Assembly: GCF_028687955.1 (NCBI RefSeq) | Contig: NZ_JAQTZC010000014.1 | Location: forward strand, 1 to 37,202 | Length of the DNA stretch: 37,202 nucleotides | Direction of reading: 5' to 3' | DNA from: Acidocella sp. | GTDB taxonomy: Bacteria > Pseudomonadota > Alphaproteobacteria > Acetobacterales > Acetobacteraceae | In this document: positions 28,543 through 36,914 of the stretch, in pieces | Layout of the letters: each line of letters begins with the position of its first letter | How positions within the stretch are numbered: position 1 is the first letter of the stretch | Notes under the pieces: model-generated | The model's database searches: none | What the model was told of the DNA's origin: nothing | Seen by the model: only the letters and a program-made list of their open reading frames with translations | Position numbers and translations under genes: made by a program

Positions 28543-29523
28543 ATGAAAACCCCCGTTCGCGTTGCCGTTACCGGTGCTGCTGGTCAGATTGGTTATGCTA
28601 TCCTGTTCCGCATCGCCAATGGCGATCTGCTTGGCAAGGACCAGCCGGTTATCCTGCATCTGCTCGACCTGCCGGTGGCGCAGAAGGCGCTGAACGGTGT
28701 GATCATGGAACTGAAGGATTGCGCCTTCCCGCTGCTGGCCGGCGTGGTGCCGAGCGATGACCCGAATGTGGCGTTCAAGGATGTCGATATCGCTATTCTC
28801 ATCGGCTCGCGCCCGCGCGGCCCCGGCATGGAGCGCCGCGACCTGCTGGCCGCCAATGCCGAGATCTTCAAGGTGCAGGGCAAGGCGCTCAACGATGTCG
28901 CCAAGCGCTCGGTTAAAGTGTTGGTTGTGGGCAATCCGGCCAATACCAATGCTTATATCGCCATGAAGTCGGCGCCGGGCCTGCCCAAGAGCGCGTTCAC
29001 CGCGATGCTGCGGCTTGACCATAACCGTGCGGTCTCGATGCTGGCGGAAAAGGCCGGGGTTGCGGTTGCGGATATCGAGAAGGTGGCGGTGTGGGGCAAT
29101 CATTCGCCCACTATGTATGCCGATTACCGCTTTGCCGCGGTGGGGGGCGAGTCGCTCGCCGCCAAGATCAACGATGAGACCTGGTATCGTGAGACCTACC
29201 TCGGCGCTGTCGGCAAGCGTGGCGCCGCCATCATCGAGGCGCGCGGCCTGTCTTCGGCCGCTTCCGCCGCCAATGCCGCGATCGACCATGTGCGTGATTG
29301 GGTGCTGGGCACCAAAGGCAAATGGGTTTCCATGGGCATTCCCTCCGATGGCTCCTACGGCGTGCCGGAGGATGTGATGTTCGGCGTGCCTGTTATCTGC
29401 GAGGGTGGGGCGTATAAGCGGGTTGAAGGTCTGCCTGTCGATGAATTCTCTAAGGGCCGGATTCAACACACGTTGAACGAGCTGCTGGAAGAACGTGAGG
29501 CGGTTGCCGCGCTGCTCGGCTAG
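28543..29523 (+). CDS. mdh: Malate dehydrogenase (cytosolic-type, two-domain)
   Basis: 326 aa from ATG 28543; GGAG lies 9 nt upstream, and the earlier in-frame codon at 28486 has no such site. It interconverts malate and oxaloacetate in the TCA cycle. [19 protein letters not shown] is the NAD-binding start typical of the cytosolic/NADP-MDH-like branch, [15 protein letters not shown] the mobile loop and [11 protein letters not shown] the catalytic His. It is followed by a strong terminator. Confidence 0.96.
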
Positions 29524-29528
29524 TATCT

Positions 29529-29546
29529 TGCGTCATTCATGACGCA
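29529..29546. promoter_or_regulatory. Inverted repeat TGCGTCAT-TC-ATGACGCA
   Basis: An 8-bp perfect inverted repeat with a 2-bp spacer starts 6 nt after the mdh stop codon, upstream of the Ehr-type operon. It could be an operator for that operon or part of the mdh transcript end. Confidence 0.35.
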
Positions 29547-29553
29547 GGGTACT

Positions 29554-29580
29554 GCGCGCGGGCTGGTGGGCGGCGCGCGC
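29554..29580. repeat. Isolated GC-rich core related to the 127-bp repeat
   Basis: GCGCGCGGGCTGGTGGGCGG followed by CGCGCGC matches the middle hairpin of copies A and B (141-170, 19372-19401) with small deletions, without the flanking palindromes. Like the other copies it lies just after a gene end. Confidence 0.55.
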
Positions 29581-29592
29581 TGATATGACTGG

Positions 29593-29627
29593 AAAAGGCC
29601 AGGGGATTGATCTCCTGGCCTTTTTTT
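29593..29627 (+). terminator. Rho-independent terminator after mdh
   Basis: AAAAGGCCAGGGGA pairs with TCTCCTGGCCTTTT (one G-U), followed by a continuous T run. A strong intrinsic terminator. It leaves only about 25-30 nt before the start of the hyfB-like gene. Confidence 0.85.
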
Positions 29628-29656
29628 AATGAAGGCCGGTTGCCTGGGATGTGGGT

Positions 29657-31363
29657 ATGCGCCTTCCGGCGCGCAGGCTGGTTTGCTATGGCTTGGTTGT
29701 GGGTAATTCCTTTGCTTTGATGTTTGGTTTGCCGGGGCAGGGGATGCATTTGCGCCTTGATGCCTTGTCCGTGCTGTTTCTGTGCATTCTCGTGCCGCAG
29801 ATTGTGGCCAGCGCGCTGGCCGAGCGGCGGGGGTCCATCGCGTTCTGGGTGTTTGCGGGCGCCATGGTCCTCACGCTTCTGGCGGGTGATGCGTTCACGC
29901 TGATTTTTGGCTTCGAGCTGATGAGCGCGGCTTCGTGGCTGCTGGTGCTGCGCGGCGATGCCAGGCCGGCGACTCTGTATGCCGGCATGGCGATGTTTTC
30001 CGCCGCTTGTTTGATCCCGGCGGTGTTTCTGCCTGCGAGCTCACTCGCGTTTATGCTGGTGTTGCTGGGCGCTGGCGCCAAGGCGGGGCTGGCGCCATTG
30101 CATTTCTGGCTGCCGCGCGCGCATCCAGCGCCGCCTGCCGGGGTTTCTGCTTTGATGTCCGGCGGGATGGTGAAGGTCTCGCTCTATATCCTCATTCGCT
30201 ACGGTTTTATTGAGTTCGGCGCGGCGGCGCAGCCCTGGTGGGGTTCGGTGCTGATCGTCGCTGGGGCGGCTTCGGTGTTGATCGGTGCGCTGCGGGCCAT
30301 GCTCGAGGTTGAGCTGAAGACCATGCTGGCCTGTTCGACGGTTGAGCATGTTGGGTTGATCGCGGTTGGGTTGGGGATTGCGCTGCGGGCGAAGGCTATG
30401 GGCAACCTGGATCTGGCGTCGCTCGCGCTGCAGGGGGCTTTGCTTTGCGCGGTGGCGCATGGGTTATTCAAGCCGATGCTGTTCCTGGGGGCTGGGGCGG
30501 TAAAGAAGGCGACGGGGACAACGTCGCTGGATTGGCTAGGCGGGCTGATGCGCGGCATGCCGCGGTTGGGCCTGCTGATGCTGGCGGGCGCCGCTGGGAT
30601 GGCGGCGCTGCCGCTGGGGCCGGGGTTTGCGCCGGAGTTTTTGCTGCTGCATGCCGTGATCAAGGCCGCCGCCACGGGTGGGATTCTGGCGCGGATCGGC
30701 TTTACGGCCCTGCTGGCGGGATTGGGCTTGAGCGCCGCGCTGGCGCTGGGCGCCGTAGTGCGGTTGATCGGCATAGGTTTTCTGGGGCGCCCGCGCAGCC
30801 TGCACGCCGCCGCCGCCGGGGATGCCAATCGTGCGACGCTGGCCGGTATGGGGTTTTTGGCGGCTCTTTGCGTGCCGGTGGCGCTGCTGCCGGGTGTGGT
30901 GCTGGGCATGATGGAGCCGGTTATCCAGCTGTTGGCGCCCAATTCCGCCCCAGCGCCGCTCAGCTATGCGCCGCTGTCGCTGTTTTTGTTGCTGGCGGCC
31001 GCGGCCGCCGCCGCGTTTTTTGGGCTGCGCCGCTTTGCGGTGCGCGGCACCCGCGAGGTGCCGGCCTGGACATGCGGATTTGGCAGCCCGCCGGCGTGGT
31101 TGCCCTTTGGCGATCCGCTGACCCAACCCAGTGCCACCGGGTTTGCCGAGCCGGTCCGCCGCGCCATCGCGCGCGGGGTGCTGGCGCCGCAGGGCGTTGA
31201 CCCGGCGGAGGCTTATCTGTTGTTCCCCTTGTCGCAAGTGAGCCTGCGGCTGACGCGGGTGGCGGAGCATATTCGCCGCTCCACCATACGCCAGCGGCTT
31301 GCTTTCGTGTTTGTGGCGCTGGTGATGTTTTTGCTGGCGCTGGGGCTGAGTGAGGGGGGCTGA
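29657..31363 (+). CDS. hyfB: Hydrogenase-4 subunit B-like (NuoL/Mrp antiporter-type) subunit of an Ehr complex
   Basis: 568 aa from ATG 29657 (GTG 29651 is an alternative; neither has a strong ribosome site). It is very hydrophobic with many predicted helices. The proton-channel region GAGAKAGLAPLHFWLPRAHP near residues 139-158, with its key Lys, and VEHVGLIAVGLG further on, are shared with NuoL/M/N and HyfB. The C-terminal domain (WTCGFGSPPAWLPFGDP, then a terminal helix) is typical of HyfB. The N-terminus is shorter than in E. coli HyfB. It is the first gene of a six-gene operon; its TGA overlaps the next start. Confidence 0.85.
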   Translation: MRLPARRLVCYGLVVGNSFALMFGLPGQGMHLRLDALSVLFLCILVPQIVASALAERRGSIAFWVFAGAMVLTLLAGDAFTLIFGFELMSAASWLLVLRGDARPATLYAGMAMFSAACLIPAVFLPASSLAFMLVLLGAGAKAGLAPLHFWLPRAHPAPPAGVSALMSGGMVKVSLYILIRYGFIEFGAAAQPWWGSVLIVAGAASVLIGALRAMLEVELKTMLACSTVEHVGLIAVGLGIALRAKAMGNLDLASLALQGALLCAVAHGLFKPMLFLGAGAVKKATGTTSLDWLGGLMRGMPRLGLLMLAGAAGMAALPLGPGFAPEFLLLHAVIKAAATGGILARIGFTALLAGLGLSAALALGAVVRLIGIGFLGRPRSLHAAAAGDANRATLAGMGFLAALCVPVALLPGVVLGMMEPVIQLLAPNSAPAPLSYAPLSLFLLLAAAAAAAFFGLRRFAVRGTREVPAWTCGFGSPPAWLPFGDPLTQPSATGFAEPVRRAIARGVLAPQGVDPAEAYLLFPLSQVSLRLTRVAEHIRRSTIRQRLAFVFVALVMFLLALGLSEGG

Positions 31364-32325
31364 TGGGGATGTTCCTGCTCCGCCTGGTGGCGACTCTACT
31401 GCATATCGGCTTGGTGTTTGCTCTGGCGCCGTTGTTGATGGGGCTGGTGACCAAGCTGCGGGCGCGGCTGCTTGGGCGGCGGGGGCCGCCGGTGGTGCAG
31501 CCATACCGCAACCTGCGCCGGTTGCTGCATAAGACCACGCTGGTGCCGGACACCGCGACCGATCTGTATCCCATCTGGCCATTTGTATGCTTTACCGCCA
31601 CGGCCGGGGCGGCAATGCTGGTGCCGGGGTTTTCGCTCGGGCTGCTGACCGCCAACGTTGGCGATTTTATTACGTTGATCGGTCTGTTTGCGCTGGCGCG
31701 TGGCGCGACCATGCTGGCGGGGATGGAGTCGGGCTTTGGTTTTGGCGGGGCGGCGGCCGCGCGCGAGGCGCTGTTTAGCGTGTTCGCGGAGGCGGCCCTG
31801 CTGGTGATCCTGATTAGCTTCGTGCTGATTGCTCATTCGCCCACGGTGGATGGGGTGGCGGCGGCGTTCCGGAACGGGCAACTGGGCATTTCAGTTTCGC
31901 TGGGCTTTGCACTGGCAGCCATGCTGGCCGTGGCGCTGACTGAAACGGGGCGGATTCCAGCGGATAATCCCGCCGGGCATCTGGAACTCGCCATGGTGCA
32001 TGAGGCGATGCTGCTGGAGTATTCCGGGCGGTTTCTGCTGTTGTTCGAATATGCGGCGATGCTGCGGCTGATGGTATGGATGTGCTTGATCGGCACGGTG
32101 TTTTTTCCTTTCGGCATGGCGCGCGCGGGGGAGATTCTCACCTGGCCGGGCGGACTGGTGCTGTGGGCGGGGAAACTGGGCGCGATGGCGGTGGTGCTCT
32201 CGCTGTTTGAGATCGGCACGGCCAAGATGCGGGTCTTCCGGGTGCCGGAATTTTTGGGCGTGGCGGTGTTGCTCGGCGTGCTCGCCGGGGTGTTTTTATT
32301 CGTGGCGGCGAGGATTGGTGGATGA
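31363..32325 (+). CDS. hyfC: HyfC/HycD-like (NuoH-type) membrane subunit of an Ehr complex
   Basis: 320 aa, about eight helices. The NuoH/HyfC signatures are present: QPYRNLRRLLHKTTLVP near residue 46 and ADNPAGHLELAMVHEAMLLE near residue 199, the acidic cytoplasmic loop at the junction with the hydrophilic subunits. In complex I and group 4 hydrogenases this subunit links redox chemistry to the ion path. Start overlaps the hyfB stop (TGATG); the stop overlaps the next gene by ATGA. Confidence 0.9.
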   Translation: MGMFLLRLVATLLHIGLVFALAPLLMGLVTKLRARLLGRRGPPVVQPYRNLRRLLHKTTLVPDTATDLYPIWPFVCFTATAGAAMLVPGFSLGLLTANVGDFITLIGLFALARGATMLAGMESGFGFGGAAAAREALFSVFAEAALLVILISFVLIAHSPTVDGVAAAFRNGQLGISVSLGFALAAMLAVALTETGRIPADNPAGHLELAMVHEAMLLEYSGRFLLLFEYAAMLRLMVWMCLIGTVFFPFGMARAGEILTWPGGLVLWAGKLGAMAVVLSLFEIGTAKMRVFRVPEFLGVAVLLGVLAGVFLFVAARIGG

Positions 32326-32981
32326 ATCTGGATTATCCGCTGGCGCATCTGATGGGTGGGGTGATCCTGATGTGCGCGTTCTCGATGCTCTCCCAACGCC
32401 GGCTTGCGGCGATGATCACGCTGTATCAGGTGCAGGCACTCACCCTCTCCGCCGCGGCGTTCTGGCAAGGATTCGCGCAAGGGGCGGGGGATCTCTACCT
32501 CACCGGCCTCATCACCCTCGTCATCAAGGGTATTTTGCTGCCCATGGGCATGCGCCAGATCGTGCAGCGGTTCAACATGGTCCGCGCCGTGGAAACCGCC
32601 GTGCCGGTCGGGTTCTCGATGATTCTGGGGGTTGGGTTGATTGGCATTGCGGTGCTGGTGGTGTTGCCGACGACGGTAAGCGCGGTTTCGCTCACGCGCG
32701 AGGATCTGGCGATTTCGCTCTCGGTCGTGTTGCTAGGCCTGCTGGTGATGACGCTGCGGCGCAATGCCATCGCGCAGGTGATCGGATTTCTTTCCACTGA
32801 GAACGGGCTGGTGCTGGCGGCCACCGGCATGCCGGGGATGCCGTTTGTCGCCGAGCTTTCAGTGGCGTTGCTGGTGCTGCTGGCTTTCCTGGTGATCGGC
32901 GTGTTTCTGTTTCGAATCCGCGAGCATTTTGACACGCTGGATCTGGTGGGCATCGAGGAAATCGAGAGGCGCGGACGATGA
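32322..32981 (+). CDS. hyfE: HyfE-like (NuoK-related) membrane subunit
   Basis: 219 aa of mostly helices. HLMGGVILMCAFSMLSQRRLAAMI, VLLGLLVMTLRRNAIAQVIGF and STENGLVLAATGMPGMPF are HyfE-like, with the NuoK-related portion in the C-terminal half. It overlaps both neighbours by 4 bp. It is a structural membrane subunit of the ion-translocating arm. Confidence 0.85.
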   Translation: MNLDYPLAHLMGGVILMCAFSMLSQRRLAAMITLYQVQALTLSAAAFWQGFAQGAGDLYLTGLITLVIKGILLPMGMRQIVQRFNMVRAVETAVPVGFSMILGVGLIGIAVLVVLPTTVSAVSLTREDLAISLSVVLLGLLVMTLRRNAIAQVIGFLSTENGLVLAATGMPGMPFVAELSVALLVLLAFLVIGVFLFRIREHFDTLDLVGIEEIERRGR

Positions 32982-34432
32982 ACCTTTGTTTGCCGGCGGT
33001 GTTTTTGCCGTTGCTGGCGGCGCCCGCGATTGGAGTGTTTGGCACGCGCGCGCAGGGGGCGCTGGCGAATTTGGCGCTGAACGTGATTGTGTTCGGGTTT
33101 ACGGTTGGTGTGTTTTTCGAGCCTGGGAGCGGGCTGATCCATGCCGATGATCTGGGGATGATCTTTGGCGCTCTCACCAGTTTTGTTTGCATGACCACGG
33201 CGCTCAGTAATCTTGGTTTTGTATGGAGCGGCAACGAGGTGCTCAGCTTGCGGCGCTGGCGGGTGTATCATGCGATGTGCCAGGTGGTGCTGGGGAGCAC
33301 GCTGCTGGGGCTTTACGCTGATAATATCGGGCTGCTGTGGGTTGCGGTGGAGGGGGCGACGATTGCCGCGACGGTGGGGGTGAGTCTCTCGCGCACGGCT
33401 TCGGCGCTGGAGGCCGCGTGGAAATATTTCATCCTCGGCGGCGTGGGCATCGCGCTGGCGCTGTTTGGCACCATGCTGGTTTATTTGGCGGCGCAGCCGG
33501 CGCTGGGGCCTGGGCTGGCGGCGATGAGTTTTACCGCGCTTGGCGCGCATGCCACGAAACTGGACGGTTCGCTGCTGACGCTGGCGTTTGTGTTTCTGCT
33601 GTTCGGCTATGGCACCAAGGCGGCGCTGGTGCCGCTGCATGGCTGGTTGCCCGATGCCTATGCCGAGGGGCCGATACCGCTGACCACGGCGCTGAGCACG
33701 TTGATGCTGAATGTCGCGCTGATCGCAATTTTACGGTTCCGGCATTTGATGCAGGCGAATTTTGCCGGCGGCGGCGGGGCGTTGCAGCCGGGGGTGTTTT
33801 TGCTGACGCTGGGGTTGGCCTCGCTGCTGCTCACCGCTTTTTCGCTCTCGCGGCGGCGTGATGCGCGGCGGTTTTTTGGTTTCTCGTCCATTGAGCATTC
33901 GGGAATCGCGGTGTTTGCTTTTGGCATTGGCGGCCCGGCGGCGATTTTTGGCGGGCTGCTGCATATGCTGGTGCACACGCTGATAAAATCGGCGCTGTTT
34001 CAGGCGTTGATGCGCGGGGCGGCGCTGCGCGGCTCGGCGGCGCCAGGAAATTATAGCTTCTCGCATCTGCGCGGCATGATCCACAGCAATAAATATCTCG
34101 GCTGGCTGCTCGGCGGTTGCGTTTTTGCGCTGACAGGCCTGCCGCCGTCTGGTTTGTTCGCCAGCGAGTTCATCATCATCAGCCAGACCATTCAGCGCGA
34201 TCCTTATGTGTCGCTGCCGCTTGGCCTGGGGCTTGTTTTATGCGCGGTGGCGATCATCCGCCATGTCGGCCCGCTGGTGTTTGGCCATGCGCCGCCGCAT
34301 ACGAAGCACCAGAAGGCGGGGGTTGGCATTAATTTGGCCGGGTTGCAGCTGGCGCTGGGGTTTGGCATTGCCTTTGCCATGCCGTGGTTTCTGCTGAACG
34401 CGCTTTCCTCTGTCGCGGCGGCGCTGCAATGA
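32978..34432 (+). CDS. hyfF: HyfF-like (NuoM/N antiporter-type) subunit
   Basis: 484 aa with about 13-14 helices. LFGYGTKAALVPLHGWLPDA near residues 207-226 contains the conserved TM7 Lys, FSSIEHSGIAVFAFG the following channel motif, and GLPPSGLFASEFIII the next block. It is a second ion-translocating antiporter-like subunit. It overlaps hyfE and hyfG-like genes by 4 bp each. Confidence 0.88.
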   Translation: MNLCLPAVFLPLLAAPAIGVFGTRAQGALANLALNVIVFGFTVGVFFEPGSGLIHADDLGMIFGALTSFVCMTTALSNLGFVWSGNEVLSLRRWRVYHAMCQVVLGSTLLGLYADNIGLLWVAVEGATIAATVGVSLSRTASALEAAWKYFILGGVGIALALFGTMLVYLAAQPALGPGLAAMSFTALGAHATKLDGSLLTLAFVFLLFGYGTKAALVPLHGWLPDAYAEGPIPLTTALSTLMLNVALIAILRFRHLMQANFAGGGGALQPGVFLLTLGLASLLLTAFSLSRRRDARRFFGFSSIEHSGIAVFAFGIGGPAAIFGGLLHMLVHTLIKSALFQALMRGAALRGSAAPGNYSFSHLRGMIHSNKYLGWLLGGCVFALTGLPPSGLFASEFIIISQTIQRDPYVSLPLGLGLVLCAVAIIRHVGPLVFGHAPPHTKHQKAGVGINLAGLQLALGFGIAFAMPWFLLNALSSVAAALQ

Positions 34433-35796
34433 AGCTGCTCTCAGCGCAGGATTGGCAGGCGTACCCTGGAAAATTCATCGCCCTGTGGACGGATGCGCAG
34501 TTTGCCTATGCGCTTTACCAGCCGGCGGAGCTGGTGGCGACGCCGCTGGTGGAGGGCGCTTATCCGGCGCTGCGCCATAAAGGGGCGGCGTGGTTTCAAC
34601 GCCTGGCGTATGACAGCCATGGCCATAATGCCATCGGGGCGGCGGACACGCGCCCGGCGATCGAACATTTCCGCAGCGCGGACGGGACGGCGCCCTGGCC
34701 GGAGTTTGCCAGCCCTGGCGGAGAGGGGGTTCATCAGGTCGCCGTTGGGCCGATCCATGCCGCGATCATTGAGCCGGGGCATTTCCGCTTCTCGCTGCGC
34801 GGTGAGGAGGTGCTAAAGCTTGAGGCGCGGCTGGGGTATTCCCACAAAGGCACGCTGGCGCTGATGCGCGGGAAATCGCCACGGCTGGCGGCCCGCTTCG
34901 CTGCCCGGATTTCAGGCGATGCCACGGTTGCCCACAGCATTGCCTTCGCGCATGCGGCCGAGGCCGCGCTGGGAATGACGCCGCCGCCGCGCGCGGTTTA
35001 TTTGCGCGCGATCATGGCGGAGTTGGAGCGTCTGGCGAACCATGGCAGCGATGTTGGGATGATCGCAGGAGATGCGGGGTTCTCATTCCTGGATGCGCGC
35101 TTCGCCTTGCACCGCGAGGCGCTGTGCGAGGCCGCGCGGGTGGCGTTCGGGCACCGGCTGATGATGGACATGGTGATACCCGGCGGTGTCGCGGGGGATA
35201 CCTCCTCTGGCGGCGCGACCGCGATTTTAGCCGCCCTACTGGCATTGGAGAGCGAGCTTCCCAGTCTGACGCGCGTGTTCGAGGATTATGCCAGCTTGCA
35301 GGACCGGGTGGTGGGGACCGGCATTGTTTCGCCCGCTTTGGCGGCGGCCTATGCCGCGGGTGGGTTTACCGGGCGGGCCGCCGGGCAGAACCATGACGCG
35401 CGGGTTTCCCCCGGCTATGCGCCTTATGAACATTTTGGCTTGGAGGTTCCTGTTGAGCAGGATGGCGATGTGGTGGCGCGCATCCGCATCCGGCTGGCTG
35501 AAATGACCGAGAGCATCCGCCTGATCCGCGATATGCTGGCCAATTTACCCGATACCGTGATCGCGATAGCGCCGCCTTCGGGCAGCGGCAGCGGGCTTGG
35601 CGTGGCGGAGAGCTTCAGGGGGCCTGTGTGGCACTGGTTGCGCATAGAAGCGGGTACGATCAGCGATGTGTTTGTCGCCGATGCGAGCACGCTGCAATGG
35701 CCGTTGGTGGAGTTCGCCGCCGCCACCGGGATTCTTGCGGATTTCCCGCTGATCAATAAATCCATCAATGCCTCCTACTCGGGAGTGGATCTGTAA
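34429..35796 (+). CDS. hyfG: HyfG/HycE-like large subunit lacking the Ni-Fe ligands (Ehr type)
   Basis: 455 aa. Residues 1-90 resemble the NuoC-like domain of HycE; the rest is the large-subunit (NuoD-like) domain with VGPIHAAIIEPGHFR (residues 106-120) and LGYSHKGTLALM. In HycE the first cysteine pair lies in RVCGICGFAHS; here the same place reads RISGDATVAHS, so Ser162 and Ala165 replace the cysteines. The C-terminal DPCxxC region reads NASYSGVDL (Ser449, Gly452). All four Ni-Fe ligands are therefore missing and the protein cannot be a hydrogenase. This defines an energy-converting hydrogenase-related (Ehr) complex. The C-terminus also lacks the extension cut off by maturation peptidases. 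Start ATG 34429 overlaps hyfF. Confidence 0.9.
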   Translation: MKLLSAQDWQAYPGKFIALWTDAQFAYALYQPAELVATPLVEGAYPALRHKGAAWFQRLAYDSHGHNAIGAADTRPAIEHFRSADGTAPWPEFASPGGEGVHQVAVGPIHAAIIEPGHFRFSLRGEEVLKLEARLGYSHKGTLALMRGKSPRLAARFAARISGDATVAHSIAFAHAAEAALGMTPPPRAVYLRAIMAELERLANHGSDVGMIAGDAGFSFLDARFALHREALCEAARVAFGHRLMMDMVIPGGVAGDTSSGGATAILAALLALESELPSLTRVFEDYASLQDRVVGTGIVSPALAAAYAAGGFTGRAAGQNHDARVSPGYAPYEHFGLEVPVEQDGDVVARIRIRLAEMTESIRLIRDMLANLPDTVIAIAPPSGSGSGLGVAESFRGPVWHWLRIEAGTISDVFVADASTLQWPLVEFAAATGILADFPLINKSINASYSGVDL

Positions 35797-36341
35797 TGGT
35801 GTGGAAAACCCTCCTGCAGCACTGTATCTCTCAGCCGGCCGCGCCGCGCAGGCAGGACCCCGCCGCCGTTGCCGCGTTGCGCCAGAGGCTTGCCGCTGCA
35901 GGGCATGAAAAACTTGGGCGTAGCCTCGCTATCCGCCATGTTGCCGCAGGCAGCTGCAATGGCTGCGAGCTGGAACTGCGGGCGACGCAGAACCTGATTT
36001 ATGACCTGACGCAATACGGGCTGAGCTTTACGCCCAGCCCGCGGCATGCGGATGTGCTGCTGATAACCGGCGTTGCCGGAGACAACATGATCGCCGCGGC
36101 GCGCCAGGCACGCGAGGCGATGGCTGATCCGGTGCTCGTGCTCGCCATGGGGGATTGCGCGGTGGATGGCGGGGTTTTTAAGGGCTCGCCGGCCATTGCC
36201 GGTGGAGCGGAGGCGATTATGCCGGTGGATCTGTTTGTTCCGGGCTGCCCGCCGGCCCCGGCGCAGATTATCGAAGGGCTGCTGGCCTTGCTTGAGGTGA
36301 ATGACATTCTCCCAGCCAGGCCGGTGAGGGGGCCGAGGTAG
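35796..36341 (+). CDS. hyfI: HyfI/HycG-like (NuoB-type) iron-sulfur small subunit
   Basis: 181 aa. All four cysteines for a proximal [4Fe-4S] cluster are kept: Cys54 and Cys57 (GSCNGCELEL), Cys121 (MGDCAVDGGVFKG) and Cys151 (VPGCPPAPAQII). So the complex retains at least one redox centre although its partner lost the Ni-Fe site. ATG overlaps the previous stop (TAATG). No ferredoxin-like (HyfH/NuoI) gene follows; a terminator and the converging ppa gene end the operon. Confidence 0.92.
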   Translation: MVWKTLLQHCISQPAAPRRQDPAAVAALRQRLAAAGHEKLGRSLAIRHVAAGSCNGCELELRATQNLIYDLTQYGLSFTPSPRHADVLLITGVAGDNMIAAARQAREAMADPVLVLAMGDCAVDGGVFKGSPAIAGGAEAIMPVDLFVPGCPPAPAQIIEGLLALLEVNDILPARPVRGPR

Positions 36342-36343
36342 AC

Positions 36344-36368
36344 ACCAGGGGACAGCGCGCCCCCTGGT
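36344..36368. terminator. Bidirectional terminator between the Ehr operon and ppa
   Basis: ACCAGGGG (36344-36351) pairs with CCCCTGGT (36361-36368) between two converging stop codons. No long T-tract is seen. Confidence 0.55.
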
Positions 36369-36389
36369 CTGGTTCGCGGGTTGCCGGTG

Positions 36390-36914
36390 CTACTTGGCCG
36401 CGCGGGTCAGGCTCGCGGAGATGGCGGCTTCGGCGGCGGCGCGGTCTGCCCAGCCGGTGATTTTGACCCATTTGCCCTTTTCGAGGTCTTTGTAGTGCTC
36501 GAAGAAGTGTTTGATGGCATCGCGGGTGATGGCGGGAAGCTGCGCGACTTCGTTGATGTCAGTGTACTGGGGGTGGACCTTGTCATGCGGGACGCAGACG
36601 ATTTTCTCATCCATGCCGGCTTCGTCTTCCATGAGGAGCAGGCCGATCGGCCGGGCGCGGACCACGGCACCTGGAACGACGGCGGTTGGCAGCAGCACCA
36701 GGGCGTCAGCCGGGTCGCCGTCATCGGCTAGCGTGCCGGGGATGAAGCCGTAGGCGGCGGGGTAGGTCATGGGGGTGAAGACCACGCGGTCCACGATCAG
36801 GGCGCCGCTCTCCTTGTCGATCTCATACTTCACGCCTGAGCCGGCGGGGATTTCCACCACGATGTTGATGTCGCGCGGTACGTCCTTACCAGCCGATAGT
36901 TTGCTCACGTCCAT
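36390..36914 (-). CDS. ppa: Soluble inorganic pyrophosphatase (family I)
   Basis: 174 aa from ATG 36914, preceded by AGGGAG 11 nt upstream; a longer frame to 36983 lacks support. It hydrolyses pyrophosphate in the cytoplasm. The family I signature DDGDPADALVL, the N-terminal EIPAGSGVKYEIDKESG and the YKDLEKGKWVKITGW region carry the metal- and phosphate-binding residues. It is monocistronic and converges with the Ehr operon. Confidence 0.97.
   Translation of the reverse strand: MDVSKLSAGKDVPRDINIVVEIPAGSGVKYEIDKESGALIVDRVVFTPMTYPAAYGFIPGTLADDGDPADALVLLPTAVVPGAVVRARPIGLLLMEDEAGMDEKIVCVPHDKVHPQYTDINEVAQLPAITRDAIKHFFEHYKDLEKGKWVKITGWADRAAAEAAISASLTRAAK

Follow-up and report, generated by a model that had tools for sequence, protein, structure and literature searches.

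The stretch of DNA analysed here, the window, comprises positions 1 to 37,202 of contig NZ_JAQTZC010000014.1 from a draft genome of Acidocella sp. (G000; 2.15 Mb, 122 contigs, 93.35% complete). At 29651-36341 it carries six genes on the same strand, with successive overlaps of 1, 4, 4, 4 and 1 bases, that encode a complex of the Ehr (energy-converting hydrogenase-related) type. An earlier note on this DNA, made from the sequence alone, had described six overlapping genes starting at 29657. The overlapping unit stands, while its start is moved to a GTG codon at 29651; the ATG at 29657 lies two codons inside. The genes and the two sites of interest within them are:

29651..31363, + strand: EhrB/HyfB-type antiporter-like subunit (B), 570 aa; Pfam Proton_antipo_M, 2.9e-34
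31363..32325, + strand: EhrC/NuoH-type membrane subunit (C), 320 aa; Pfam NADHdh, 8.2e-26
32322..32981, + strand: HyfE-type (NuoK-like) membrane subunit (E), 219 aa; NCBIfam PRK11492, 1.1e-18, below cut-off
32978..34432, + strand: EhrF/HyfF-type antiporter-like subunit (F), 484 aa; Pfam Proton_antipo_M, 9.4e-37
34429..35796, + strand: large subunit (G; HyfG/NuoD-type, short N-terminal part), 455 aa; Complex1_49kDa and NiFeSe_Hases
34912..34929, + strand: large-subunit codons 162-167 (S-G-D-A-T-V), where hydrogenases have the first Ni-Fe cysteine pair
35767..35793, + strand: large-subunit codons 447-455 (N-A-S-Y-S-G-V-D-L), where hydrogenases have the second Ni-Fe cysteine pair; the protein ends here
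35796..36341, + strand: small subunit (I; HyfI/NuoB-type), 181 aa; Pfam Oxidored_q6, 1.8e-28

The Pfam and NCBIfam families agree with the subunit set read earlier, i.e. two antiporter-type subunits, a NuoH-type and a NuoK-type subunit, a large subunit and an FeS subunit. The best NCBIfam matches of subunits B and F are hydrogenase 4 subunit B (7.8e-103) and hydrogenase 4 subunit F (5.6e-125), both below cut-off. Subunit E gave no Pfam match and a single NCBIfam match, to a hydrogenase 4 membrane subunit.

The large subunit has lost both cysteine pairs that hold the Ni-Fe site in hydrogenases, at the very residues singled out in the earlier note. In brief, Ser162, Ala165, Ser449 and Gly452 replace Cys241, Cys244, Cys531 and Cys534 of E. 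coli HycE. The hydrogenase motifs RxCGxC and DPCxxC are missing, the corresponding residues being RISGDA and NASYSG, and the whole protein contains one cysteine, C233. We aligned 107 large subunits, that of the window included, from 110 distinct loci; three distant sequences (L045-L047, 30-33% identity) were left out. At the site of the first pair, S162 (97%), G163 (99%), D164 (99%), T166 (98%) and V167 (98%) are nearly invariant, position 165 is S in 71, A in 26 and T in 10 sequences, and position 169 is H in 79 or Y in 28. At the site of the second pair, N447 (96%), S449 (95%), G452 (100%) and D454 (100%) are kept. R160 is also among the residues of the old metal site fixed at 95-100%, and, in addition to D164 and D454, the pocket has the acids D247 and D418 (both 100%). 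The pocket motifs of the clade can be written SGD[SAT]TV and NxSYSGxDL. No residues follow position 455, whereas a tail of 32 is present in HyfG and HycE of E. coli as well as in the formate hydrogenlyase (FHL) of Azospirillum. As judged from the alignment, a conserved polar pocket occupies the place of the old metal site; it is neither hydrogenase-like nor a match to the quinone residues of complex I.

Cysteines occur at position 442 in 69 and at position 448 in 70 of the 107 sequences, near the lost second Ni-Fe pair, and their presence depends on lineage. The window has I442 and A448, and the aligned Acidocella relatives likewise have no cysteine at either position.

A structural model of the large subunit (predicted local distance difference test, pLDDT, 89.7; predicted template modelling score, pTM, 0.91) has FHL HycE (7z0s_E) as its nearest fold, with a template modelling (TM) score of 0.92 by query length and 24% identity, followed by E. 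coli complex I. The stretches with pLDDT below 50, residues 109-113 and 452-455, would correspond to two loops beside the old metal site. In a tree of 36 rows, there is good support for the FHL rows as one group and for the Nuo rows as another. The rows labelled Ehr do not fall on one side of a branch; three distant rows are nested inside and Rhodococcus lies outside (2 changes). It should be noted that this tree is without the published Ehr sequences of Geobacter, Sulfobacillus and Nitrospira. Two further kinds of relative were seen. L045, L046 and L047, from three genomes of the family, are distant large subunits with further changed motifs, e.g. RAAAGASVAH, and L268, on an Alicyclobacillus plasmid, is a distant relative with no recognised partner genes nearby.

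The small subunit retains the complete 4Fe-4S ligand set, C54, C57, C121 and C151, as numbered in the earlier reading, and has a further cysteine, C10. Among 98 aligned sequences C54, C57 and C121 are kept at 100% and C151 at 99%. The nearest solved chains are MbhJ (6cfw_J) and FHL subunit 7 (7z0s_G).

In the membrane subunits, charged residues are well conserved: E89, K144, K274 and E329 in B (96-97%, 88-92 sequences), R134, E143, D201, E208 and E219 in C (97-100%, 93-95 sequences), K69, E160 and E178 in E (98-99%, 97 sequences) and E125, K214, K337 and E397 in F (97-99%, 99-100 sequences). In the alignment, the antiporter-type Glu and Lys residues of B and F (96-99%) coincide with channel residues of E. 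coli NuoM, HyfB and HyfF, positions that, by analogy with complex I, we take to have an ion-channel role. The complex had been described as an ion-pumping machine with one Fe-S cluster; the single cluster is borne out by the ligands, and pumping may be predicted from the conserved residues only. Subunit B of Acidocella (approximately 540-580 aa) is without N-terminal residues that are present in the Roseomonas-type protein (629-641 aa) and in E. coli HyfB (672 aa). In the window, in-frame stop codons are found approximately 8 codons upstream of its start.

The six genes are under constraint. Median ratios of nonsynonymous to synonymous substitution rates (dN/dS) between Acidocella pairs are 0.146 for B, 0.124 for C, 0.128 for E, 0.125 for F and 0.150 for G (9 pairs each) and 0.205 for the small subunit gene I (8 pairs). 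The neighbouring genes for malate dehydrogenase and pyrophosphatase gave 0.127 (8 pairs) and 0.07 (3 pairs). The same replacements at the Ni-Fe codons recur across the 107 aligned sequences, which disposes of the sequencing errors that the earlier note had allowed for. Based on these recurring replacements and on dN/dS values of 0.12-0.21, the six-gene complex is neither an assembly error nor a product of decay.

The large subunit was found at E <= 1e-40 in 73 of 147 related genomes, and in 37 of the 38 in the genus, own genome included. At 1e-60 it was found in 36 of 385 genomes of a class sample and in 76 of 398 of a phylum sample, 62 of the latter reaching 1e-130 or better; the weakest 14 phylum matches (1e-71 to 1e-83) may include true hydrogenases or fragments. 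The order B-C-E-F-G-I is kept in 82 of 126 loci, and many of the others are cut by contig ends or have unrecognised subunits. Annotated plasmid records of Rhizobium, Methylovirgula, Bradyrhizobium, Paraburkholderia and Burkholderia contain all six genes, and a Rhodococcus plasmid record has them in the order I-B-C-E-F-G. For Azospirillum thermophilum five genes are listed, with a gap at the place of HyfE in an incomplete gene table. In public records the Ehr genes are labelled as parts of hydrogenases or NADH dehydrogenases.

A search of the window's own genome with PF00374 at E <= 1 gave the large subunit gene and two weak matches, which are two NuoD genes. A large subunit with all four cysteines elsewhere, on which the earlier assignment would have failed, was thus not found in this 93.35% complete draft. 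HypD, the sole maturation gene searched for here, is also absent from the draft, with a positive E. coli control, and at E <= 0.001 it is absent from 53 of the 73 Ehr-bearing relatives. Against expectation, HypD is nevertheless commoner together with Ehr (20/73, one below the curated cut-off, vs 4/74 other relatives, p 0.0003; these and the following counts ignore genome size, incompleteness and relatedness within strata). Because the 53 do without it, we take the excess to reflect shared lifestyle or genome size. Azospirillum argentinense provides an internal control, with a true FHL on plasmid p2, where HycH, HycI, hypA, hypC and fdhD lie alongside, and an Ehr-type large subunit on plasmid p1, whose record carries no annotation.

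The two NuoD-type genes of the own genome are located on other contigs (G000:C24 and G000:C87) and differ in length: one is a NuoD of 400 aa, the other a frame of 592 aa that resembles a fused NuoCD. This suggests two complex I sets.

No NuoE, F, G or I gene is found in the operon. It is flanked by a malate dehydrogenase gene upstream and, on the opposite strand, an inorganic pyrophosphatase gene downstream, and the clusters shown that hold these flanking genes have no member beyond near relatives. We clustered 1052 neighbouring open reading frames (ORFs) from the 110 distinct loci, with flanks of unequal length, by blastp and found no widely recurring partner. The largest cluster, present at 23 of the 110 loci, matches no Pfam family and is perhaps a shadow ORF. 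A small helix-turn-helix gene clustered in 8 of the 110 loci, and such a gene lies 5' of the operon in Rhizobium, Methylovirgula and Bradyrhizobium. Neither an electron-donor gene nor a substrate pathway recurs beside the operon in these loci and the annotated records. An Rfam search of 29400-36500 gave no match at gathering scores, and a promoter scan gave 1 site where 1.1 are expected. Terminator-like sites (21 vs 13.0 expected) all lie within the six genes and were not used as evidence.

We compared the presence of possible electron donors between the 73 Ehr-bearing genomes and the 74 other relatives. PF01558, a 2-oxoacid:ferredoxin-type family with one protein in the own genome, is commoner with Ehr in the family stratum (25/29 vs 12/23, p 0.013) and the class stratum (7/7 vs 29/50, p 0.039), both uncorrected, and not significantly so overall (51/73 vs 41/74, p 0.089). 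A separate FixX is found in 5 of 73 vs 1 of 74 genomes, and in 3 of 7 vs 1 of 50 in the class stratum (p 0.005). The earlier note had named no electron partner, and none of the donor families tested is universal among the 73.

A further genome is that of an alphaproteobacterium, here G258, of approximately 0.95 Mb in about 50 contigs, with a GC content of 33% and listed as 100% complete. We covered 948 kb of it, small overlaps included (contigs 1-49 minus the last 3 kb of contig 45). Among 15 chosen genomes searched with PF00346 at 1e-10, G258 alone matched only in its Ehr large subunit. It encodes B, C, E, F, G and I on two contig ends, and its large subunit has the same pocket motifs. A broken, collinear nuoB-nuoC-nuoD remnant (L184:5184-6331) lies approximately 6 kb from the intact ehrB on the same contig. 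The remnant is incomplete and spread over different frames; its pieces match Acidocella proteins at 38% over 74, 31% over 90 and 60% over 47 residues. Queries with E. coli nuoA, E, F, H, I, J and K gave no tblastn hit, nuoG being left untried, and nuoL, M and N match ehrB and ehrF only. Nor were hits obtained with E. coli cyoA/B/C/E, cydA/B and ndh, or with hypB/D, fdoG/H, rsxB/C/D, gltA, aceE/F and lpd. Ehr is the only complex I-like pump found in G258.

What G258 has kept is atpA and atpD, the flavoprotein and iron-sulfur subunits of fumarate reductase (FrdAB), GlpC and MenA, the last four above curated cut-offs, as well as, with scores below curated cut-offs, a YfhL-type ferredoxin and a set of four fixABCX-like genes. 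It also encodes a fusion protein that presumably resembles a fusion of NfnAB; its two halves score over the PRK06222 and TIGR01316 cut-offs. In our reading, G258 is an anaerobe that respires fumarate by way of menaquinone, runs a ferredoxin economy and has retained Ehr longer than complex I.

Based on these observations, we suggest that Ehr is an ion pump that couples a soluble low-potential donor to quinone, a reading for which we see the chances as evenly balanced. Ehr would be a membrane ion pump of the complex I/group 4 hydrogenase family that carries a single [4Fe-4S] cluster and, where the Ni-Fe site used to be, a remodelled pocket free of metal. The donor, a ferredoxin or flavodoxin, would dock straight on the small subunit, since the subunits through which electrons usually enter are missing. 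Electrons would pass via the single cluster to a quinone at the interface of the large, small and NuoH-type subunits, and a change at this interface would drive charge through the antiporter-type subunits. The quinone step is proposed because of the company that Ehr keeps in G258 and of the family it belongs to, not because of quinone residues. A reverse mode, in which a proton gradient generates low-potential reductant, may also be possible, and proton-gradient-driven ferredoxin reduction has been proposed for a six-gene cluster of Acidithiobacillus ferrooxidans (PMC2621215). Assembly, pumping, donor, acceptor and direction are all parts of what we infer.

Several observations weigh against the coupling of a soluble donor to quinone. 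Redox activity, quinone binding and pumping are predictions from sequence. E. coli NuoCD H224 and Y273, which we take to be quinone-binding residues of complex I, align with I114 and G163 and are not conserved; a quinone at the old Ni-Fe site therefore gets no support from the aligned complex I residues. Among the families considered as obligatory donors, PF01558 is missing from 22, TIGR01591 from 19 and a separate FixX from 68 of the 73 Ehr-bearing genomes, and the association with PF01558 may reflect genome size. The evidence from G258 comes from one draft genome. Its ehrC is divided between two contig ends with approximately 13 residues unseen, and its absences stem from tblastn with E. coli queries, a weak probe of divergent genes (nuoH misses the intact ehrC). 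No hit to the pyruvate:ferredoxin enzyme YdbK was found in it, and a membrane pyrophosphatase, HppA, above cut-off, gives it a second ion pump.

Other explanations can be put forward. Together with a formate dehydrogenase, Ehr could make up a chain that conserves energy from formate, an idea raised for Margulisbacteria, Acidithiobacillus and Geobacter. Such a pairing was put forward in PMC6349859, Ehr subunits of Geobacter reached a higher abundance with formate than under conditions with hydrogen (PMC7894505), a formate role was proposed for the A. ferrooxidans cluster (PMC2621215), and in A. caldus a few genes separate the core hyfBCEFG from a formate dehydrogenase (PMC3826726). In our counts, the formate dehydrogenase family TIGR01591 is commoner at 1e-100 in Ehr-bearing genomes (54/73 vs 41/74, p 0.025). 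This difference is not significant within the genus, family or class strata, and only 70 of the 95 genomes matching at 1e-100 exceed the curated cut-off. The own genome has no match at 1e-100, G258 gave no hit to fdoG or fdoH, and the annotated plasmid stretches have no formate dehydrogenase gene close to the operon, in contrast to the true FHL of A. argentinense with its fdhD, hypA, hypC and hycI. We find a formate-linked chain improbable. An Mrp-like device for ion or pH homeostasis under acid stress or for CO2/bicarbonate, without redox turnover and with the large and small subunits as plug or gate, would agree with the near-universal presence of Ehr in an acidophile genus (37/38 genomes), with the single cluster and absent donor subunits, and with a second hyfBCEFG of A. 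caldus located beside a beta-carbonic anhydrase (PMC3826726). A plug would have no need of four cluster ligands and pocket residues conserved at 95-100%, and Ehr extends beyond acidophiles to rhizobia, Azospirillum and Rhodococcus, so we consider this device unlikely.

We are likewise doubtful that the remodelled pocket converts a small molecule other than quinone. Mbs-type complexes act on sulfur compounds, and the pocket, with its near-invariant acids and, in roughly two thirds of the sequences, cysteines at 442 and 448, is unlike that of either hydrogenase or complex I; these cysteines are, however, missing from the window and its aligned genus mates, and no co-located substrate pathway recurs. 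A degenerate hydrogenase kept by chance, or a set of assembly errors, might be imagined from the loss of the Ni-Fe ligands and from the deranged respiratory enzymes (bc1) reported in Acidocella (PMC10715153). To this we give hardly any credence, given the low dN/dS, the recurrence of the replacements across the 107 aligned sequences, the spread of the large subunit through the phylum sample and the retention of Ehr in the reduced G258, whose nuoBCD is broken.

If the preferred reading, in which Ehr couples ferredoxin to quinone, is true, Ehr would be an overlooked route by which electrons enter the respiratory chain, and its great simplicity would suit it to studies of the electron-transfer-driven pumping of complex I. 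The Ehr genes are present in many ordinary bacteria of soil, plants and acid waters, as the phylum sample indicates, and the remodelled pocket and the genome without complex I make the role of Ehr directly testable. A more far-reaching version, which we put forward tentatively and would not yet bet on, is that the complex I family has in Ehr its smallest quinone-linked member (six subunits, one Fe-S cluster), able to stand in for complex I. In G258 it would then pass electrons from ferredoxin, supplied by the FixABCX-like set, to menaquinone for fumarate reduction while pumping ions, and the SGDST/NxSYSGxD pocket would be a third type of site in the family, located where hydrogenases have the Ni-Fe centre and complex I the quinone head. 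Literature searches, which had limited coverage and were not aimed directly at this, turned up no Ehr genome described as lacking complex I.

Complex I and the related 11-subunit enzymes share NuoD-, NuoB-, NuoH- and NuoM/N-type subunits and the ion-channel residues with the complex described here. Complex I differs in that here there is one cluster only, no NuoE, F, G or I in the operon, and no conservation of H224 and Y273. For an 11-subunit complex I-like enzyme, electrons from ferredoxins have been proposed (PMC11238625). E. coli Hyf and Hyc provide the nearest fold and the best PDB sequence match, with subunits B, C, E, F, G and I in common, whereas the operon here is without HyfA, D and H, the four cysteines and the 32-residue tail, and its genome is without HypD. 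MbhJ and the Mbh large subunit of Thermococcales are also close PDB sequence matches, and the extra Mrp-type subunits of Mbh, Mbs and Mbx are not in the operon.

The hyfBCEFGI cluster of A. ferrooxidans has the same six gene names; the comparison is by names and published class, not by sequence. An earlier paper took it for a group 4 hydrogenase, with a role for formate or ferredoxin (PMC2621215), and its catalytic subunit was later classified by HydDB as a non-hydrogenase (PMC7735108). A survey of ubiquinone reductases in Acidocella (PMC10715153) uses the word hydrogenase once, for a type 1 enzyme, and the six-gene complex is unmentioned in the excerpts consulted.

Published Ehr complexes come closest. 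In excerpts on Sulfobacillus (PMC4378227), comammox Nitrospira (PMC10284858) and Margulisbacteria (PMC6349859), the function of Ehr is given as unknown or proposed and no demonstrated substrate is stated, in line with the earlier note, which had used the name for a class defined by sequence and without an established substrate. What the published complexes share is a syntenic gene cluster that encodes antiporter- and NuoH-type subunits together with a group 4-like large subunit devoid of the CxxC motifs. The six genes show the features of this class: both CxxC pairs are lost, antiporter- and NuoH-type subunits are clustered with the large and small subunits, and the ligands of the proximal, N2-type cluster are kept. 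By these features the six-gene complex is an Ehr complex, and the class is already in print. The clade described here differs in having its own fixed pocket motifs, the published Ehr being compared by description only, and within the clade Acidocella stands apart in having no cysteine at 442 and 448 and in missing the N-terminal stretch of subunit B. New here are the conservation of the pocket and of the ion-channel residues, the finding that no tested donor family is universal, and the apparent loss of complex I in G258.

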